Program-made: the position numbers and the translations under genes | Notes under the pieces: model-generated | The model's input: the letters and a program-made list of their open reading frames with translations, nothing else | The model's database searches: none | What the model was told of the DNA's origin: nothing | NCBI GenBank assembly: GCA_022984795.1 | Contig: JALIHJ010000004.1 | Span: forward strand, 278,853 to 342,852 | From: Fabrea salina | Taxonomy: Eukaryota > Ciliophora > Heterotrichea > Heterotrichida > Fabreidae | DNA length: 64,000 bases | Reading direction: 5' to 3' | Shown here: positions 19,422 through 64,000 of the stretch, in pieces | Layout of the letters: every line of letters begins with the position of its first letter | Position numbering within the stretch: position 1 is the stretch's first letter

Positions 19422-20567
19422 CTAGTAGTAAGATTGGTAAAAGTGCTTTTGGCTGTAAGGAGAGACTTTTGGCTTAAGTATAGGGTTCCCTTTGGCCATG
19501 ATGGACTTTTGGTCGTAAGTGATGCTTTTTTTCTGCTTGTTTGCCAAGTGCTTTGGCTTAATTATGTGCGGAAGTTTAGTAATGTTAGGCATGATCCCAG
19601 CTGCCCGGTCAGCTGTGGGTGCAGGCAGTGTCGGAGTAGGCAGATTGCTTGTAACCTTTTCGTTTTCCCGAATGTCTCTGAAGTAGGGGTGCTGAAGTGC
19701 TTGTCTAGCAGTGATTCTGTCTTCTTCGATGTAAGTCAGCATCTTAGACATCAGGTCTTTGGCTTCAGCTGACACGTGGGGTATCAGTTGGGTGAACCCA
19801 CTTCCTTCTTGCTTTGGGAAGTTAAAGTCCATGTGAGAAGCCCTTTTCTGGAACTTCTGCAAAATATCGGGCGGAGGCGTGCCTAGGATGTTGTGGATTT
19901 TGTGGACCTGGTCCAACTCATTCTTGCCTGGAAACAAAGGACACAAGGCCAAAACTTCGAAAAACACACAACCTACACCCCAAATGTCCATTTTGTAGCT
20001 GTAGTAACCGTCTGTGAGCAGACACTCTGGAGGACGGTACCAGCGAGTGGAAATGTACTCTGTGAAAGGCTGTCTGGAGTAAATGCCTCGGCAGGACCCG
20101 AAGTCAGCAAGTTTAAGTGAGTCTGTGGAAAGCAGCACGTTTTCAGGCTTGATGTCTCTGTGGAAGATTCCGTTTCTGTGCATGTGGTCGATGGACTTGA
20201 GGAGTTGGTGCATGTAGTACTTAACTTTGTTTTCAGGGGTGTTGCTGCGTCTTCCACGAATCCACTCATAAAGGTTGAGTTCCATAAGTTCAAAGACCAA
20301 AGCCAAACGCCCTGTAGGTTCGTCACTAGATAACTTTTACTATAGGATTTCAATGAGTTTGACGATGTGCGGGTGTGGGGAAAGCCGCCGGAGGGCTTGG
20401 ATTTCACGGAGTTTATTGACTTGTTCGAGGTTCTTAAAGTGGTTCTTCATACATTTGATTGCAACGTATTTCCCGGTTTTGATGCTTTGTGCCTTTAAGA
20501 CCTCCGAAAAAGTGCCTTCACCTTTTTTGGAAATCAATCGATATTCTGCTTAGAACTTACTGTGCAT
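19422..20567 (-). CDS. MOK: MOK (RAGE) family protein kinase, two 15-nt introns
   Basis: 371 residues after removing 20546-20560 (GTAAGTTCTAAGCAG) and 20326-20340 (GTAAAAGTTATCTAG). The joins give MHKYRLISKKGEGTFSEV and KLIEILYDEPTGRLALVFEL. Kinase motifs are all present: VAIKCMK, HRDIKPEN, DFGSC and a TEY activation loop (PFTEYISTRWYRPPE). LREIQALRRLSPHPHI is diagnostic for MOK. MOK belongs to the RCK (MAK/ICK/MOK) group acting at cilia. The tail is short and basic. Confidence 0.95.
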
Positions 20568-20730: not shown

Positions 20731-21579
20731 ATGGAGAGTCAAGAACTAGATGACTCTGTTAACTTCTACGAGAGTCAACAACAACTTGAGGAGTACTACG
20801 ACCAAAGAGACATTAAGGCTTGGCAAGACGACTCCAACTGCATCATTTGCAGCTTAAACTTCGAAGAAGACGGAGTCCCTCTAATTCCTAAGAATTGCTG
20901 CAAGTTCTGCTTCCGAGGAGTCTGTGACGCGTGCTCCCAAAAAAGACTCCCCCACCCTGTTTTAGAAGGCCTCCAAAGAGTCTGCAACGACTGCTTTCCT
21001 CTCCAGGAGTCTCGAAAGCGCAGCTTAAACAACTCCAAAACTTCCAGTGACTTCTCAGAAGAAGACCCTAGACAAAGAAGCATCTCTGTAGTTCAAAAAC
21101 CAAGTGCTTACCAGTTCCCCAGCAGTCCTAACAAGAACCTAAACGAACCCAACAAGTTCCCAGGAGCCATTAGAGTTGACGGCAACTACGGCCAAGAGTC
21201 ACCTTTTTCTCCCACAAACCACGAGCAAATCAGAGCTATCATCAGGGAAAACGAGTCACTCAAACAAGAACTCTCAGAACTGGACGATACCCACAAACAA
21301 CAGATCAAAGAACTCCTGGAAGCCCTTGAAATACTTAAGCACCAGTTGTCCCACGAAGAAAGAACCTACTCTGTGAACTCAGTAACTGAGGGAGTAGACA
21401 TTCCTACTTTACTCAAAGAAAAAGAACAACAAGCCAAGCGCATTAAGGAACTCCAGGATGAACTCCAAGTTAAAGAACAGCAACTACAAAGACTCAAGTA
21501 CTCTGCTGCTGAAAAAAGCATGGACGAACTCTCTATGGACCCTGTTTCTCAAGACAAATGCAAGTGTTCTATTTTTTAA
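20731..21579 (+). CDS. FYVE-finger protein with coiled coil and CaaX end
   Basis: 282 residues. A FYVE-like double zinc finger at ~residues 35-90 (CIICSLNFEEDG.., KNCCKFCFRGVCDACS, QRVCNDCF) with RGVCDAC in place of the usual R(R/K)HHCR basic motif, so PI3P binding is uncertain. A linker and a coiled coil (~170-270) follow. The C-terminus KCKCSIF carries a CaaX box (CSIF) for prenylation. Probably an endosomal tether. A 163-bp gap separates it from MOK. Confidence 0.85.
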   Translation: MESQELDDSVNFYESQQQLEEYYDQRDIKAWQDDSNCIICSLNFEEDGVPLIPKNCCKFCFRGVCDACSQKRLPHPVLEGLQRVCNDCFPLQESRKRSLNNSKTSSDFSEEDPRQRSISVVQKPSAYQFPSSPNKNLNEPNKFPGAIRVDGNYGQESPFSPTNHEQIRAIIRENESLKQELSELDDTHKQQIKELLEALEILKHQLSHEERTYSVNSVTEGVDIPTLLKEKEQQAKRIKELQDELQVKEQQLQRLKYSAAEKSMDELSMDPVSQDKCKCSIF

Positions 21580-21621
21580 TTAACTTAAATACCAATTTTG
21601 AATGGACGTTAGAATACTTAA

Positions 21622-22141
21622 ATGAAAGCCTACTTTCTGATATCCTTAATTCTGAGCTCAGCTTTTAGTTTACCAGAGTCTGGCAAGCCAACTGATGAAG
21701 ACTCTGAAAGCACAGGGTGGAAAACTTATGCATGTGGAGCTTTAGCGGGGGTTGGAGCTGTGGGAGCTGGAGCAATAGCACTTGGATTTGCTCCTGCAGG
21801 AATAGTTGCAGGGTCTGTGGCTGCAGGTGTGCAGGGGTCTATAGGAAATGCAGCAGCTGGTTCATTATTTTCCTTGGCCCAGTCCGCAGGGGCTAGTGGT
21901 ACGTTTACATGGCTTTCAGGTACTGGATTTGGAGGTTGTGCAGCCTTACTTACTCCTGATATGTACAATCTGGTTTTCTGGTGAAGAAGATAGCAAAGAA
22001 TCTGACCAAAGCACTTCTGACTCCGAAGATAGCAAAGAACCCCCAACAACAGAAAAGAAAGTTGTTACTGAACCAAAAACCGACAAAGAACCCCCAAAAG
22101 CAGAAAAGAAAATCGCTGCTGAGTCAAAATTTAATAAATAA
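21622..22141 (+). pseudogene. IFI6/IFI27 (ISG12)-like membrane protein with signal peptide, one +1 frame shift
   Basis: Signal peptide YFLISLILSSAFSLP, then GWKTYACGALAGVGAVGAG and a Gly/Ala-rich hydrophobic ISG12 core (ALGFAPAGIVAGSVAAG, IGNAAAGSLFSLAQSAGASG). The frame stops at TGA 21982-21984. Skipping one base near 21971-21977 continues into an acidic, Lys-rich tail with EPPTTEKK- and EPPKAEKK-type units, ending 22141 (172 residues). The paralogue at 22596-22997 is one base shorter at exactly this point, so the extra base is real relative to it: assembly error or inactivating indel. Confidence 0.75.
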
Positions 22142-22165
22142 AAAAGCTATATAGAAGACGAAGAT

Positions 22166-22513
22166 ATGCCCAAAAGCTATTCTTCCCAAGAAAATCACCA
22201 AGAAGCCCCCGAAGATTATGACTTTGACGAAAGTAAATGGGGAGACTATGAATGTATGGGTTTAGCAGGAGTACTGGCAGCTGCATATCTTGCTGGATTT
22301 ACCATTCCAGGTGCAGGGACCCAAATACCGCCTTCTTTACTTAAGTTTGTCTTCCCAGGTTTAAGCATAGGAATGCAGCATTTAGCTGGTGGTGTTTTGA
22401 TGCATTGTTTGGGCTTTCCTGGAATTAGATCTTCTGTTTTTGAGTCTCCTAGAGATAGTATACTTAAGGGCTCATGTTTAAGTTCACATTCAGTCTTTAT
22501 TTGCAATTCGTGA
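22166..22513 (+). CDS. divergent IFI6/IFI27-like membrane protein
   Basis: 115 residues. The acidic N-terminus (PEDYDFDESKWGDYEC) carries the W-x-x-Y-x-C-x-x-L-A-G-V pattern shared with the copy upstream. A hydrophobic Gly/Ala/Pro-rich region follows (LAGVLAAAYLAGFTIPGAG, LKFVFPGLSIGMQHLAGG). The C-terminal 35 residues have no match in the other copies. No signal peptide. A diverged member of the cluster. Confidence 0.6.
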   Translation: MPKSYSSQENHQEAPEDYDFDESKWGDYECMGLAGVLAAAYLAGFTIPGAGTQIPPSLLKFVFPGLSIGMQHLAGGVLMHCLGFPGIRSSVFESPRDSILKGSCLSSHSVFICNS

Positions 22514-22571
22514 TTTGAAGTCACCCTAACTTAGAATTAACTAAATAGAAAAACTAAATTCAAATATAACC

Positions 22572-22595
22572 ATGAATTAGAAATCTATTTCTGAT
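22572..22595 (+). pseudogene. vestigial signal-peptide coding start of the next gene
   Basis: ATG-AAT-TAG at 22572-22580 aligns with the ATG-AAA start of the paralogue at 21622 and stays in frame with the downstream protein. The third codon is a TAG stop and the hydrophobic signal sequence has eroded. Translation must begin at 22596, giving a protein with no signal peptide. Confidence 0.6.
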
Positions 22596-22997
22596 ATGGC
22601 TGATTCTGCATCAAATTCTAGCTTGTCAGAGTCCAAGAAGCCAAATGATAAAGATTCTAGAAACGCAAGGGGATGGAGAACTTATGCATACGGGACTGCT
22701 TTAGTAGTCGGAGCTTTGGGAGGTGGAGCGATAGCACTTGGATTTGCTCCTGCAGGAATAGCTGGAGGGTCTCTGGCTGCAGCTTGGCAGGCATCTATAG
22801 GAAATGCAGCAGCTGGTTCAGTATTCGCTACACTCCAGTCTGCGGGAGCTACTGGTACGTTTACATGGCTTTCGGGTACTGGATTTGGAACTTGCGGAGC
22901 CTTAGGTGCTGCTGATATCTACAATTCACTTTCTGGGAAAAAATCCAAGACAACAGAAGGGGAAAGTAATGCAGAGTCTGAATCTAAGGATCTTTAA
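22596..22997 (+). CDS. IFI6/IFI27 (ISG12)-like membrane protein without signal peptide
   Basis: 133 residues. Polar N-terminus, GWRTYAYG, then the ISG12 core in full (LGGGAIALGFAPAGIAGG, WQASIGNAAAGSVFATLQ, SAGATGTFTWLSG), and an acidic Ser/Glu tail. Long stretches are identical in DNA to the copy at 21622, so the duplication is fairly recent. In animals the family sits in mitochondrial or ER membranes and modulates apoptosis and antiviral responses. Its protist role is unknown. Confidence 0.85.
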   Translation: MADSASNSSLSESKKPNDKDSRNARGWRTYAYGTALVVGALGGGAIALGFAPAGIAGGSLAAAWQASIGNAAAGSVFATLQSAGATGTFTWLSGTGFGTCGALGAADIYNSLSGKKSKTTEGESNAESESKDL

Positions 22998-23058
22998 TCT
23001 AATTCAAGAATGAGAGATTTGAAGTTGTGTTAAGTCGAAGATTATTGTAACCACGTGT

Positions 23059-23418
23059 TTAGTCATTGTTTCTGATGAACTCAAGAACTTCTTCGTGGCT
23101 GTCGATTCTCTGGATTTCTTGTCCCTTTTCCTTCATGAGGTCTTCTACTGTGGTGGAGTTGTCTCTGAACCAGCCGAGGTTGTCTGCAACCAAGTGTAGG
23201 CTTTCGCACCCGTCGCACCTAATTAGAACTACTCCAGAGTGGTAAGAGTCTTTAGAAAAGGTTTTGCTGCCTCTAGTGTTGCATTTGTTGCAGGTGAAAA
23301 ACATTGCGTAGAGTCCTTGGGTGTTGTTTTTGACTCCCTTGATCTTAGAAAGTGCCTGCCAATCTTCTGGCTTCAACTGGGCAAAGTTCCGGAAAAGCCT
23401 TGTGAACCTCGACAACAT
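23059..23418 (-). CDS. DNLZ: DNL-type zinc finger protein (Zim17/Hep1/DNLZ)
   Basis: 119 residues. Mitochondrial presequence-like start (LSRFTRLFRNF), then TCNKCNTRGSKTFSKDSYH, VLIRCDGC and DNLGWF: the four zinc Cys and the DNL motif. It keeps mitochondrial Hsp70 soluble for protein import and Fe-S cluster assembly. It interrupts the IFI6/27-like cluster on the opposite strand. Confidence 0.94.
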   Translation of the reverse strand: MLSRFTRLFRNFAQLKPEDWQALSKIKGVKNNTQGLYAMFFTCNKCNTRGSKTFSKDSYHSGVVLIRCDGCESLHLVADNLGWFRDNSTTVEDLMKEKGQEIQRIDSHEEVLEFIRNND

Positions 23419-23429
23419 TTATTAACTAA

Positions 23430-23687
23430 TTACCTTTTTCCCCCTTTGGAGCTGTGCCCTTTAGAAGAGCCTCCTTTGGCAGAAGTGTGCCCTTTAGAAG
23501 AGCCTCCTTTGGCAGAAGTGTGTCCTTTAGAAGGGGTGCTTCCTTTGGCCGCGTTGGATTGGAGTGTGGAAAAGGCCGACCCAGCCGGCACATTCCCAAG
23601 TGATGACTGTACAGACGCAGCAACAGAACCCTTGGCTACTCCGGATTCTTTGAATCCCATCGAGTTTGATGCTTTCTGATGATCCAT
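23430..23687 (-). CDS. hydrophilic IFI6/27-derived protein with SKGH repeat tail
   Basis: 85 residues from the ATG at 23687; an in-frame ATG at 23723 would overlap the next gene's start. GFKESGVAKGSVAASVQ, SSLGNVPAGSAFSTLQ and NAAKG align residue for residue with the ISG12 core of the copy at 22596 (GFAPAGIAGGSLAAAWQ, SIGNAAAGSVFATLQ), but charged and polar residues replace much of the hydrophobic face. The tail has two perfect 11-residue units (KGHTSAKGGSS) and a partial third. It cannot span a membrane in the same way. Confidence 0.65.
   Translation of the reverse strand: MDHQKASNSMGFKESGVAKGSVAASVQSSLGNVPAGSAFSTLQSNAAKGSTPSKGHTSAKGGSSKGHTSAKGGSSKGHSSKGGKR
23453..23518. repeat. two perfect 33-bp tandem repeats
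   Basis: 23453-23485 and 23486-23518 are identical, and a shortened, diverged third unit follows. They encode the KGHTSAKGGSS units of the protein on the minus strand. The perfect identity suggests recent slippage or unequal exchange. Confidence 0.85.
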
Positions 23688-23721
23688 TTTTACTATGGCA
23701 GTTGGAATACTATAATAATTC

Positions 23722-25116
23722 ATGGAATTTCAAAACGAAGTAGATAAAATTCAGCTAGCATGTCGCTTGGGCGACATAAAACTGCTGAAAGCCGCCTTGA
23801 GCTCAAGTCCTTCAAGCGTTAACGAAACTGATTCTAAACTAGGGTGGACTCCTGTGTACAGAGCTGTGATCTGCGGCCACCTAGACACTGTGAGGTTCTT
23901 ACTTGAAGAAGGAGCCGACCCAAACATTCCTAATAAACTTGGAGAAACTGCTTTGCACCAAGCAGCTGACAACAACCAAGTGCGAATTGCGCAATTACTT
24001 CTTTCGCACAACGCTGACCCTAACCTTCAGCAAAGCGACGGAGACACTCCACTCCACCACGCTGCTTACAAAGGGAACTACCAAATGGCTAGTCTCCTAC
24101 TGAACTACAACGCTGACCCCAACATTTTAAATTCTGTGTTCGGAAGAAGTCCTTTGCACTACGCAGTGGAGCACTCCACCGGAAAGCTAGCCAGGCTTAT
24201 GGTGAAACACGGAGCAGACCCCTACCTTAAAGACTTAGCTGGCAAGTCCTCAGTGGACCTAGCTACTTCTGAAGAAGTCCTTAACTCTCTGAAGGAACCC
24301 TACAAAAGCCCTAAGTCGGTCTCTGAGAACTCAACTACTAATTCGCCCTGTGTAAAGCCAGAACCCCTGCAAGAAATTCCTCCCATTCCCCAAATATCCT
24401 TTGAAAAGGTGTCTTTAAGTCCCCACTCTGCCAAAAGTGAGTCTAAAAAAGAAGAGTCCAAAAGCTTCTTTTCAGCCACTGAACCTGAAGCAGAAAAAAG
24501 CGAAATCAACAACTCTTACCTTCTGCGGAAAGAAACCTTTTCCTTCGGAGGCGACCAGTCAGCACTGTACAACTGGCTGAGTTCTCACAAACTAGAGGAA
24601 CTCTTTGAGTGCTTAGCAGCTTCAGGCTGCGACTTAGAAAGCATACACTCGATCACCCTAGAAGGACTAGAGTCCCTAGGCATCTACAAACCCGGACACA
24701 GAAAACGCCTCATTGCTGCTCTGAAGGAAGAAAAACAACCTAATAAACCAACAAACACCCTTGCGTGCTGTGCCAAACCTGTTTCAGGAAACCACACACT
24801 AAATCAACTGCCTAGTTTGGAAATGTGGCTCAAAAACATCAGTTTGGAGTACTTGTACGGGAACTTTGCAGAGTCAGGCTACGAAGACCTAGAGCACATG
24901 CTTGCACTTATGCACACCAACCTAAGCATTGACGAGTGGGTGCTTGAAAAAGAAGTAGGCATTGCCAAACAAGGCCACAGGCACAGAATCCTTTCCAAAC
25001 TCAAAGAGGACTGTTCCCAAGTCACTTCCTTCAAAAAGCCACCCTCTTTGCGCCCTGAGTTAAGAATTGAGTCTGCTGGCAATGTCACTCCCTGTAGAAT
25101 GTGCACCTTAATGTGA
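23722..25116 (+). CDS. ankyrin-repeat protein with two SAM domains and CaaX end
   Basis: 464 residues. About five to six ankyrin repeats (residues ~5-190: LGWTPVYRAVICGHLDTVRF, GETALHQAADNNQVRIAQLL, GDTPLHHAAYKGNYQMASLL, FGRSPLHYAVEHS). A Ser/Pro/Glu-rich linker follows, then a SAM domain (ALYNWLSSHKLEELFECL ... KPGHRKRLIAALKE) and a second SAM-like domain. It ends CRMCTLM: CTLM is a farnesylation-type CaaX box. Likely a membrane-bound scaffold. It ends in TGA. Confidence 0.88.
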   Translation: MEFQNEVDKIQLACRLGDIKLLKAALSSSPSSVNETDSKLGWTPVYRAVICGHLDTVRFLLEEGADPNIPNKLGETALHQAADNNQVRIAQLLLSHNADPNLQQSDGDTPLHHAAYKGNYQMASLLLNYNADPNILNSVFGRSPLHYAVEHSTGKLARLMVKHGADPYLKDLAGKSSVDLATSEEVLNSLKEPYKSPKSVSENSTTNSPCVKPEPLQEIPPIPQISFEKVSLSPHSAKSESKKEESKSFFSATEPEAEKSEINNSYLLRKETFSFGGDQSALYNWLSSHKLEELFECLAASGCDLESIHSITLEGLESLGIYKPGHRKRLIAALKEEKQPNKPTNTLACCAKPVSGNHTLNQLPSLEMWLKNISLEYLYGNFAESGYEDLEHMLALMHTNLSIDEWVLEKEVGIAKQGHRHRILSKLKEDCSQVTSFKKPPSLRPELRIESAGNVTPCRMCTLM

Positions 25117-63386: not shown

Positions 63387-64000
63387 GTTAGGGTGTTAGG
63401 GTGTTAGGGTGTTAGGGTGTTAGGGTGTTAGGGTGTTAGGGTGTTAGGGTGTTAGGGTGTTAGGGTGTTAGGGTGTTAGGGTGTTAGGGTGTTAGGGTGT
63501 TAGGGTGTTAGGGTGTTAGGGTGTTAGGGTGTTAGGGTGTTAGGGTGTTAGGGTGTTAGGGTGTTAGGGTGTTAGGGTGTTAGGTGTGTTAGGGTGTTAG
63601 GGTGTTAGGGTGTTAGGGTGTTAGGGTGTTAGGGTGTTAGGGTGTTAGGGTGTTAGGGTGTTAGGGTGTTAGGGTGTTAGGGTGTTAGGGTGTTAGGGTG
63701 TTAGGGTGTTAGGGTGTTAGTGGTGTTAGGGTGTTAGGGTGTTAGGGTGTTAGGGTGTTAGGGTGTTAGGGTGTTAGGGTGTTAGGGTGTTAGGGTGTTA
63801 GAGGGTGTTAGGGGTGTGGGTGTTAGGGTGTTAGGGTGTTAGGGTGTTAGGGTGTTAGGGTGTTAGGGTGTTAGGGTGTTAGGGTGTTAGGGTGTTAGGG
63901 TGTTAGGGTGTTAGGGTGTTAGGGTGTTAGGGTGTTAGGGTGTTAGGGTGTTAGGGTGTTAGGGTGTTAGGGTGTTAGGGTGTTAGGGTGTTAGGGTGTT
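63387..64000 (+). repeat. telomere, (TGTTAGGG)n
   Basis: About 77 copies of an 8-base unit (TGTTAGGG, i.e. CCCTAACA on the other strand) run to the window end, G-rich strand 3'-ward, as at a right chromosome end. Three variant patches occur: a shortened TAGG then TGTG around 63580-63590, TTAGTGGTG around 63717-63724, and GAGGGTGTTAGGGGTGTGGG at 63801-63820. The repeat is the one described for heterotrich ciliates such as Stentor and Blepharisma. Confidence 0.97.

Follow-up and report, generated by a model that had tools for sequence, protein, structure and literature searches.

Relatives of the IFI6/IFI27 family at a single locus of the heterotrich ciliate Fabrea salina

The Ifi-6-16 family (FAM14; Pfam PF06140) is the family of IFI6 and IFI27. 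Human IFI6 is laid out, in a passage of PMC10687481, as a signal peptide, a hydrophilic region, a transmembrane segment, a connecting region, a second transmembrane segment and a hydrophilic region, and it is described in part of PMC8228428 as a protein of the endoplasmic reticulum (ER) that hinders formation of the flavivirus replication organelle. In shrimp, LvIFI6-16 is up-regulated by virus, as stated in a section of PMC9144789. For fungi, one table of PMC10051545 gives a secretome protein with PF06140, Thielaviopsis punctulata KKA29592.1. Here, we describe four neighbouring open reading frames (ORFs), genes 1-4, in a stretch of 64,000 nucleotides from the ciliate Fabrea salina (positions 278853-342852 of contig JALIHJ010000004.1; hereafter the window), three of which are, as judged by profile searches, real relatives of this family. 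To our knowledge, no interferon system is known in ciliates. The reading that we favour, and hold to be fairly probable, is that of a small family of FAM14/Ifi-6-16 membrane-hairpin genes on a heterotrich macronuclear chromosome, under birth and death.

Family assignment and copy number

For gene 4 (23430-23687, minus strand, 85 amino acids) and gene 3 (22596-22997, plus strand, 133 amino acids), the matches to PF06140 scored 39.9 bits (E 3.9e-10) and 35.4 bits (E 9.9e-9), respectively, above the curated cut-off of 29.1 bits. Gene 1 (21622-21984, plus strand, 120 amino acids as assembled) scored 24.1 bits (E 3.4e-5), below the cut-off, and gene 2 (22166-22513, plus strand, 115 amino acids) had no Pfam match at E <= 1. 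The Ifi-6-16 profile search, proposed as a check by an earlier reading made from the sequence only, was thus positive for three of the four genes at E <= 1e-3, with two above the curated cut-off. A Pfam match of gene 1 to SctB2 (E 0.82) was taken as chance, as was a match of gene 3 to the DoxD model (E 0.89) in NCBIfam, where the other three genes had no match.

When a profile of genes 3, 1 and 4 was compared with 177635 distinct PDB chain sequences, the sole solved chain matched at E <= 10 was human IFI27L1 (FAM14B, ISG12c; 2loq), with an E value of 1e-5. The match covers positions 21-104 of 126, including both hydrophobic segments. In weaker forms of the search, gene 3 alone matched 2loq at E 0.64, a profile of all four genes matched it at E 0.099 alongside two exonuclease chains at 0.15-0.16, and gene 4 alone matched no PDB chain sequence. 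In addition, a core DNA pattern, which was written from these genes together with human sequence, matched the window twice, at genes 3 and 4, and none of 100 shuffles; gene 1 does not fit it. These results indicate that the family assignment of genes 1, 3 and 4 is real and modestly interesting.

The sequence-only reading had given all four genes one IFI6/IFI27 core; the family assignment holds for genes 1, 3 and 4, on their Pfam matches and the match of their joint profile to 2loq, and is not confirmed for gene 2. The W..Y with which the core was said to start is present in genes 1, 2 and 3 (W..Y.C in genes 1 and 2, W..Y.Y in gene 3) and absent from gene 4. As far as seen, it does not belong to the animal core, because the aligned part of human IFI27L1, which differs from the ciliate genes also by five extra residues before the G.AAGS motif, contains neither W nor Y. 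GNAAAGS, likewise named as shared, is complete in just two of the four, genes 1 and 3; in gene 4 it reads GNVPAGS, and gene 2 has similar DNA opposite it in a different frame. The four genes also do not form an unbroken array of one core, since gene 2 lies between genes 1 and 3 and an unrelated gene with a DNL zinc finger lies between genes 3 and 4. Rather than variants of one core, they are better read as a pair of full members (genes 1 and 3), a partial one (gene 4) and a probable wreck (gene 2).

Gene 1 shares with human IFI6 (G1P3, 6-16) the family domain and, as judged by hydropathy and by eye and taken together with its out-of-frame tail, probably also the order of segments quoted above from PMC10687481. 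It differs from IFI6 in having an acidic linker with W..Y and in that the tail is out of frame as assembled. In contrast to shrimp LvIFI6-16, for which part of PMC9144789 gives induction by virus, the ciliate genes are known here from sequence alone. KKA29592.1 resembles them, by its annotation in the table of PMC10051545, as a non-animal PF06140 protein; it differs in being 316 amino acids long and joined to Ferritin_2, and the likeness is one of annotation.

The genome searches were six-frame, with introns disregarded and protein searches taken to E <= 10, in an assembly of 18,328,466 bases in 103 contigs; their counts are lower bounds for large families. PF06140 matched at genes 3 and 4, and the proteins of genes 1, 3 and 4 each found genes 1, 3 and 4. 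The search with gene 2 found nothing besides itself in the 18.3-Mb genome. There are hence three sure copies of the family, all at one locus, and no further member in the own-genome searches.

A ciliate that carries members of the family would demonstrate that the domain does not need interferon in order to exist; should these members be resident, the domain would also be older than interferon. Three sure copies at one locus would be a simple setting for asking about the domain's own role. The step is modest, because the family may already be listed outside animals in public databases. Literature searches for the family in protists or Dictyostelium found no papers; for fungi, they found by title nothing on fungal members; and for ciliates, among the matches listed, the titles concern airways, lung or respiratory viruses. 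We do not conclude from these searches that ciliate members have gone unreported.

Divergence of the copies

Genes 1 and 3 are, by their alignment, near-tandem paralogues. They are identical at 69 of 102 aligned positions (68%) and have a base identity of 79% over 101 codons. Over these 101 codons, in this one pair, the nonsynonymous divergence (dN) was 0.218 and the synonymous divergence (dS) 0.339, giving a dN/dS of 0.64 with a 95% bootstrap interval of 0.36-1.19. By region, dS was highest towards the N-terminus (1.18) and dropped to 0.12 towards the C-terminus, whereas dN was steady at 0.18-0.26. For the last 25 compared codons (21895-21969 in gene 1, 22851-22925 in gene 3), dN (0.18) exceeded dS (0.12), with nine amino-acid changes and two silent ones. 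The drop in dS could perhaps be explained by partial gene conversion, on what are small numbers. Between genes 1 and 3 as a whole, amino-acid changes are not generally in excess.

For gene 1, the N-terminus carries a signal-peptide-like stretch, MKAYFLISLILSSAFS, judged by eye and not by a program, followed by an acidic linker with W..Y.C. Its most hydrophobic 19-residue windows are 44-62 and 61-79, and its hydropathy peaks are 1.86, 1.19 (in the signal region) and 1.17. From 21985 to 22141 on the same strand, a charged stretch rich in K, E, S and P is open in a different frame, with a codon log-odds of 0.33, and contains a 51-bp (17-codon) tandem repeat at 22033-22129 in 1.9 copies. Compared with gene 3, gene 1 has one extra base within 21970-21980, the exact base not being pinned down by the alignments. 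The charged frame up to 22141 is probably gene 1's own tail, shifted by one base; the offset itself may have arisen in the assembly or by a real mutation, or the protein may genuinely end there. An intron joining gene 1 to the tail was also considered. Among possible introns of 13, 16 or 19 nucleotides, two keep the frame open, and neither convinces: one has 13 nucleotides, and with the other, half of the conserved core would be replaced. This join was therefore rejected.

For gene 3, the full Ifi-6-16 domain with W..Y is present and no signal peptide was seen. The DNA that matches the signal peptide of gene 1 opens with ATG-AAT-TAG at 22572-22580, and the first usable ATG is at 22596, from which five codons run out of phase with gene 1 before the two genes come into phase. 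The top hydropathy peak is 1.81.

For gene 2, W..Y.C and a hydrophobic segment (hydropathy peak 1.66) are kept, and the GFAPAGI and GNAAAGS core is lost. The protein aligns with that of gene 1 across P.D.D...W..Y.C..LAG as well as only 1 of 1000 shuffles does, whereas its alignment with gene 3 is no better than chance (285 of 1000 shuffles match it) and that with gene 4 is equalled by 93 of 1000. At the DNA level, with gene 1 taken up to 22141, the body of gene 2 scored 36.5 against gene 3, which 0 of 400 window controls and 0 of 400 codon shuffles reached, and 31.5 against gene 1 (2 of 400 in both sets). Against gene 4, it scored at chance or worse (395 of 400 as good). A profile of genes 1, 3 and 4 gave gene 2 a score of 6.4 bits, reached by 3 of the 1865 shuffles scored out of 2000 made. 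These results suggest that gene 2 is a probable scrambled copy related to genes 1 and 3.

For gene 4, the PF06140 match lies on a 99-amino-acid open frame (23430-23729) and covers profile positions 17-80 of 84; the first membrane segment of the domain is missing. No membrane-like segment remains (hydropathy peak 0.68), the net charge is +10, and the tail is a basic SAKGGSSKGH repeat, seen in the DNA as a 33-bp repeat at 23453-23533. The protein is identical to that of gene 3 at 22 of 42 positions. Its DNA is barely separable from controls in comparison with gene 3 (1 of 400 window controls and 2 of 400 codon shuffles as good) and is not separable from window controls in comparison with gene 1 (69 of 400 as good). 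An upstream exon that would supply the missing first part is unlikely to have been overlooked, because gene 4 starts 34 bases from a divergent gene for an ankyrin-SAM protein.

The sequence-only reading was right that the copies differ in N-terminus, membrane content and tail. Its further proposal, fast local diversification as in defence genes, is unsupported: dN/dS between genes 1 and 3 is 0.64, although its interval includes 1 and is compatible with diversification, and the sure copies number three, at one locus. Most of what sets the N-termini and tails apart goes back to small indels and changes of frame, which relaxed constraint or decay would explain as well.

We regard it as improbable, for these reasons, that the locus is a defence or membrane-death family whose copies diversify under viral or bacterial pressure and whose products work on membranes in the manner of animal IFI6 and IFI27. 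The copies do belong to the same family as IFI6/IFI27; in animals, its members hold back viruses and may have a part in cell death, according to parts of PMC5850085, PMC8228428 and PMC9144789. Variable N-termini and tails, as well as the C-terminal excess of dN over dS between genes 1 and 3, would also be expected of such genes. However, the overall dN/dS shows no excess of amino-acid change, the copies are few and confined to one place, and there is no sign of a defence island, the Pfam-matched neighbours in the part of the window scanned being of housekeeping or signalling types. Carrying the animal defence role over to the ciliate would be an extrapolation unsupported at this locus.

Codon use and the state of the genes

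The G+C content at third codon positions (GC3) is 0.27, 0.255 and 0.248 for genes 1-3, respectively, 0.434 for gene 4 and 0.58 for the DNL gene. Among length-matched chunks of 27 ORFs in the window, none had a GC3 as low as that of genes 1-3 (0 of 83, 0 of 88 and 0 of 75), and 30 of 120 were as low as gene 4. In 17 sampled 10-kb stretches of the genome, the lowest GC3 among 69 ORFs of at least 250 amino acids was 0.34, and 1 of 271 genome chunks of 120 codons had a GC3 of 0.27 or less. The expectation matched for amino acids is 0.39, 0.43 and 0.40 for genes 1-3, and 11, 0 and 0 of 5000 simulations were as low. By the same measure, 11, 0 and 2 of 271 real genome chunks were as extreme as genes 1-3, so that gene 1 on its own is only mildly unusual; 170 of 271 were as extreme as gene 4. 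The interval 21580-23050, about 1.4 kb, holds the three low-GC3 ORFs amid a gene-dense region whose long ORFs have a GC3 of 0.38-0.54.

The fit to synonymous-codon usage was low in all four genes: for genes 1-4, the window chunks with as poor a fit numbered 2 of 83, 0 of 88, 2 of 75 and 3 of 120, respectively. Gene 4 is consequently ordinary in GC3 and not in codon choice. In none of the four was the gene's own frame the best of six by codon log-odds. The case for coding is thus made by homology and not by codon bias, and gene 2 is only a candidate coding sequence.

These features could also be expected if genes 1-3 were a decaying island of pseudogenes or near-pseudogenes derived from one working gene, with gene 4 as the sole conserved member. 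The one-base offset of gene 1, the upstream ATG of gene 3 that runs into AAT-TAG ahead of the usable one, the scrambled core of gene 2, and the low GC3 with poor codon fit are all as such decay would leave them, and some copies do look half-decayed. Nevertheless, genes 1 and 3 are open across the whole domain, gene 3 still scores above the Pfam cut-off, and the pair keeps the same third base at 36 of 45 comparable four-fold codons, with an overall dN below dS, although the interval includes 1. In addition, the fit of gene 4 to synonymous-codon usage is poor too, so that decayed copies cannot be told apart by this measure. Decay of the whole island appears rather doubtful to us on this balance.

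The same low GC3, 0.25-0.27 against an amino-acid-matched 0.39-0.43, could instead be the trace of a horizontal acquisition of genes 1-3 from another eukaryote, since neither gene 4 nor the DNL gene is low. A source was not seen in the contigs scanned. In alignment scans, 31 stretches of viral contigs and 206 of prokaryote genome contigs matched a pattern, and none was confirmed as a relative. A Pfam search for the family in 398 genomes of one bacterial phylum, that of one of the three genomes matched by the core DNA pattern (below), gave two weak matches, none above the cut-off. Other eukaryotes, the likely donors, lay outside these searches. The related gene 4 with its ordinary GC3 suggests a resident family, and we consider acquisition from elsewhere improbable.

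The core DNA pattern also matched one viral contig and three genomes, where the ORFs were judged by eye to be chance; one match lies inside a 1030-amino-acid protein of an IMG/VR contig, and three lie opposite longer ORFs of the complementary strand (461, 467 and 322 amino acids). The Pfam family search of the three pattern-matched genomes was silent (0 of 3), as it was in 14 control genomes (0), a silence that is no proof of absence.

For the favoured family under birth and death, the locus would owe its present form to duplications, indels and the loss of parts. Short proteins with two hydrophobic segments would be encoded by genes 1 and 3, and these segments would most probably fold as a helical hairpin within an intracellular membrane. 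The putative signal peptide would take the product of gene 1 into the secretory pathway, and the product of gene 3, which has none, may insert into some other membrane. The product of gene 4 would be a diverged partial domain, probably soluble, whose tail is basic; gene 2 would be a scrambled copy. Their likely work would be to alter the stability or permeability of endomembranes in some stress or developmental state, with stress as a conjectured setting. The most that the anatomy would allow is small endomembrane proteins, of which one pair differs in its route of entry.

Several observations weigh against this reading. The second hydrophobic segment is weak as a membrane span, with hydropathy values of 1.17 in gene 1 and 1.02 in gene 3. 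An AlphaFold model of gene 3, made with a three-sequence alignment, had a mean pLDDT (predicted local distance difference test) of 43.2, too low for the hairpin to be shown by it. The codon log-odds in the genes' own frames are all negative (-0.16, -0.16, -0.14 and -0.09 for genes 1-4) and lie under the 0.10 that marks the 5th percentile in 81 control chunks. The frame offset of gene 1 may be an assembly error. Finally, if all of genes 1-3 are decaying, there is no function left to explain.

On a broader scale, FAM14 might be an ancient eukaryotic module for membrane stress, older than interferon. In one ciliate pair, small indels that change the frame would have switched the target between secretory and non-secretory membranes, another copy would have lost its membrane segment to become a soluble partial domain, and animal IFI6 and IFI27 would repeat the split. 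In animals, IFI27 is mitochondrial, in contrast to IFI6 in the ER. We put this scheme forward as a speculation that is unlikely to hold.

The locus and the chromosome end

The right edge of the window is the end of the contig, which is 342,852 bases long, and a GTTAGGGT telomere array occupies 63387-64000 there in 76.4 copies. On the complementary strand, the GTTAGGGT unit reads as a permutation of CCCTAACA, which part of PMC9942806 gives as the telomere repeat of the heterotrich Blepharisma. The window is thus the end of a macronuclear chromosome. A 15-nucleotide intron (GTAAAAGTTATCTAG) lies at 20326-20340 (minus strand) in a protein kinase gene, and its removal joins two kinase frames; introns of Blepharisma are predominantly 15 and 16 bp, according to the same part of PMC9942806. 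In 20 long ORFs read in the standard code, W is encoded by TGG 123 times, and the ORFs end in TAA 16 times, TGA twice and TAG twice; this support for the standard code is weak, because the ORF list was itself made under that code. Together, the CCCTAACA-type telomere, the tiny intron, TGG as W and TGA as stop fit a heterotrich ciliate, in agreement with the sequence-only reading, which had named a ciliate.

The DNL zinc-finger gene that separates genes 3 and 4 (23059-23418, minus strand; Pfam zf-DNL, 104.1 bits) is not a member of the family. The cluster is flanked by a gene for a FYVE-like protein (20731-21579, plus strand), at 27.1 bits just under Pfam's 27.8, and on the other side by the ankyrin-SAM gene (23722-25116, plus strand), divergent from gene 4. 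Going from the FYVE-like gene through the cluster to the ankyrin-SAM gene, with gene 1 counted up to the end of its tail at 22141, the gaps between neighbours are 42, 24, 82, 61, 11 and 34 bases. Both flanking proteins end in CaaX-like C-terminal tails, CSIF in the FYVE-like protein and CTLM in the ankyrin-SAM protein, which may point to prenylation.

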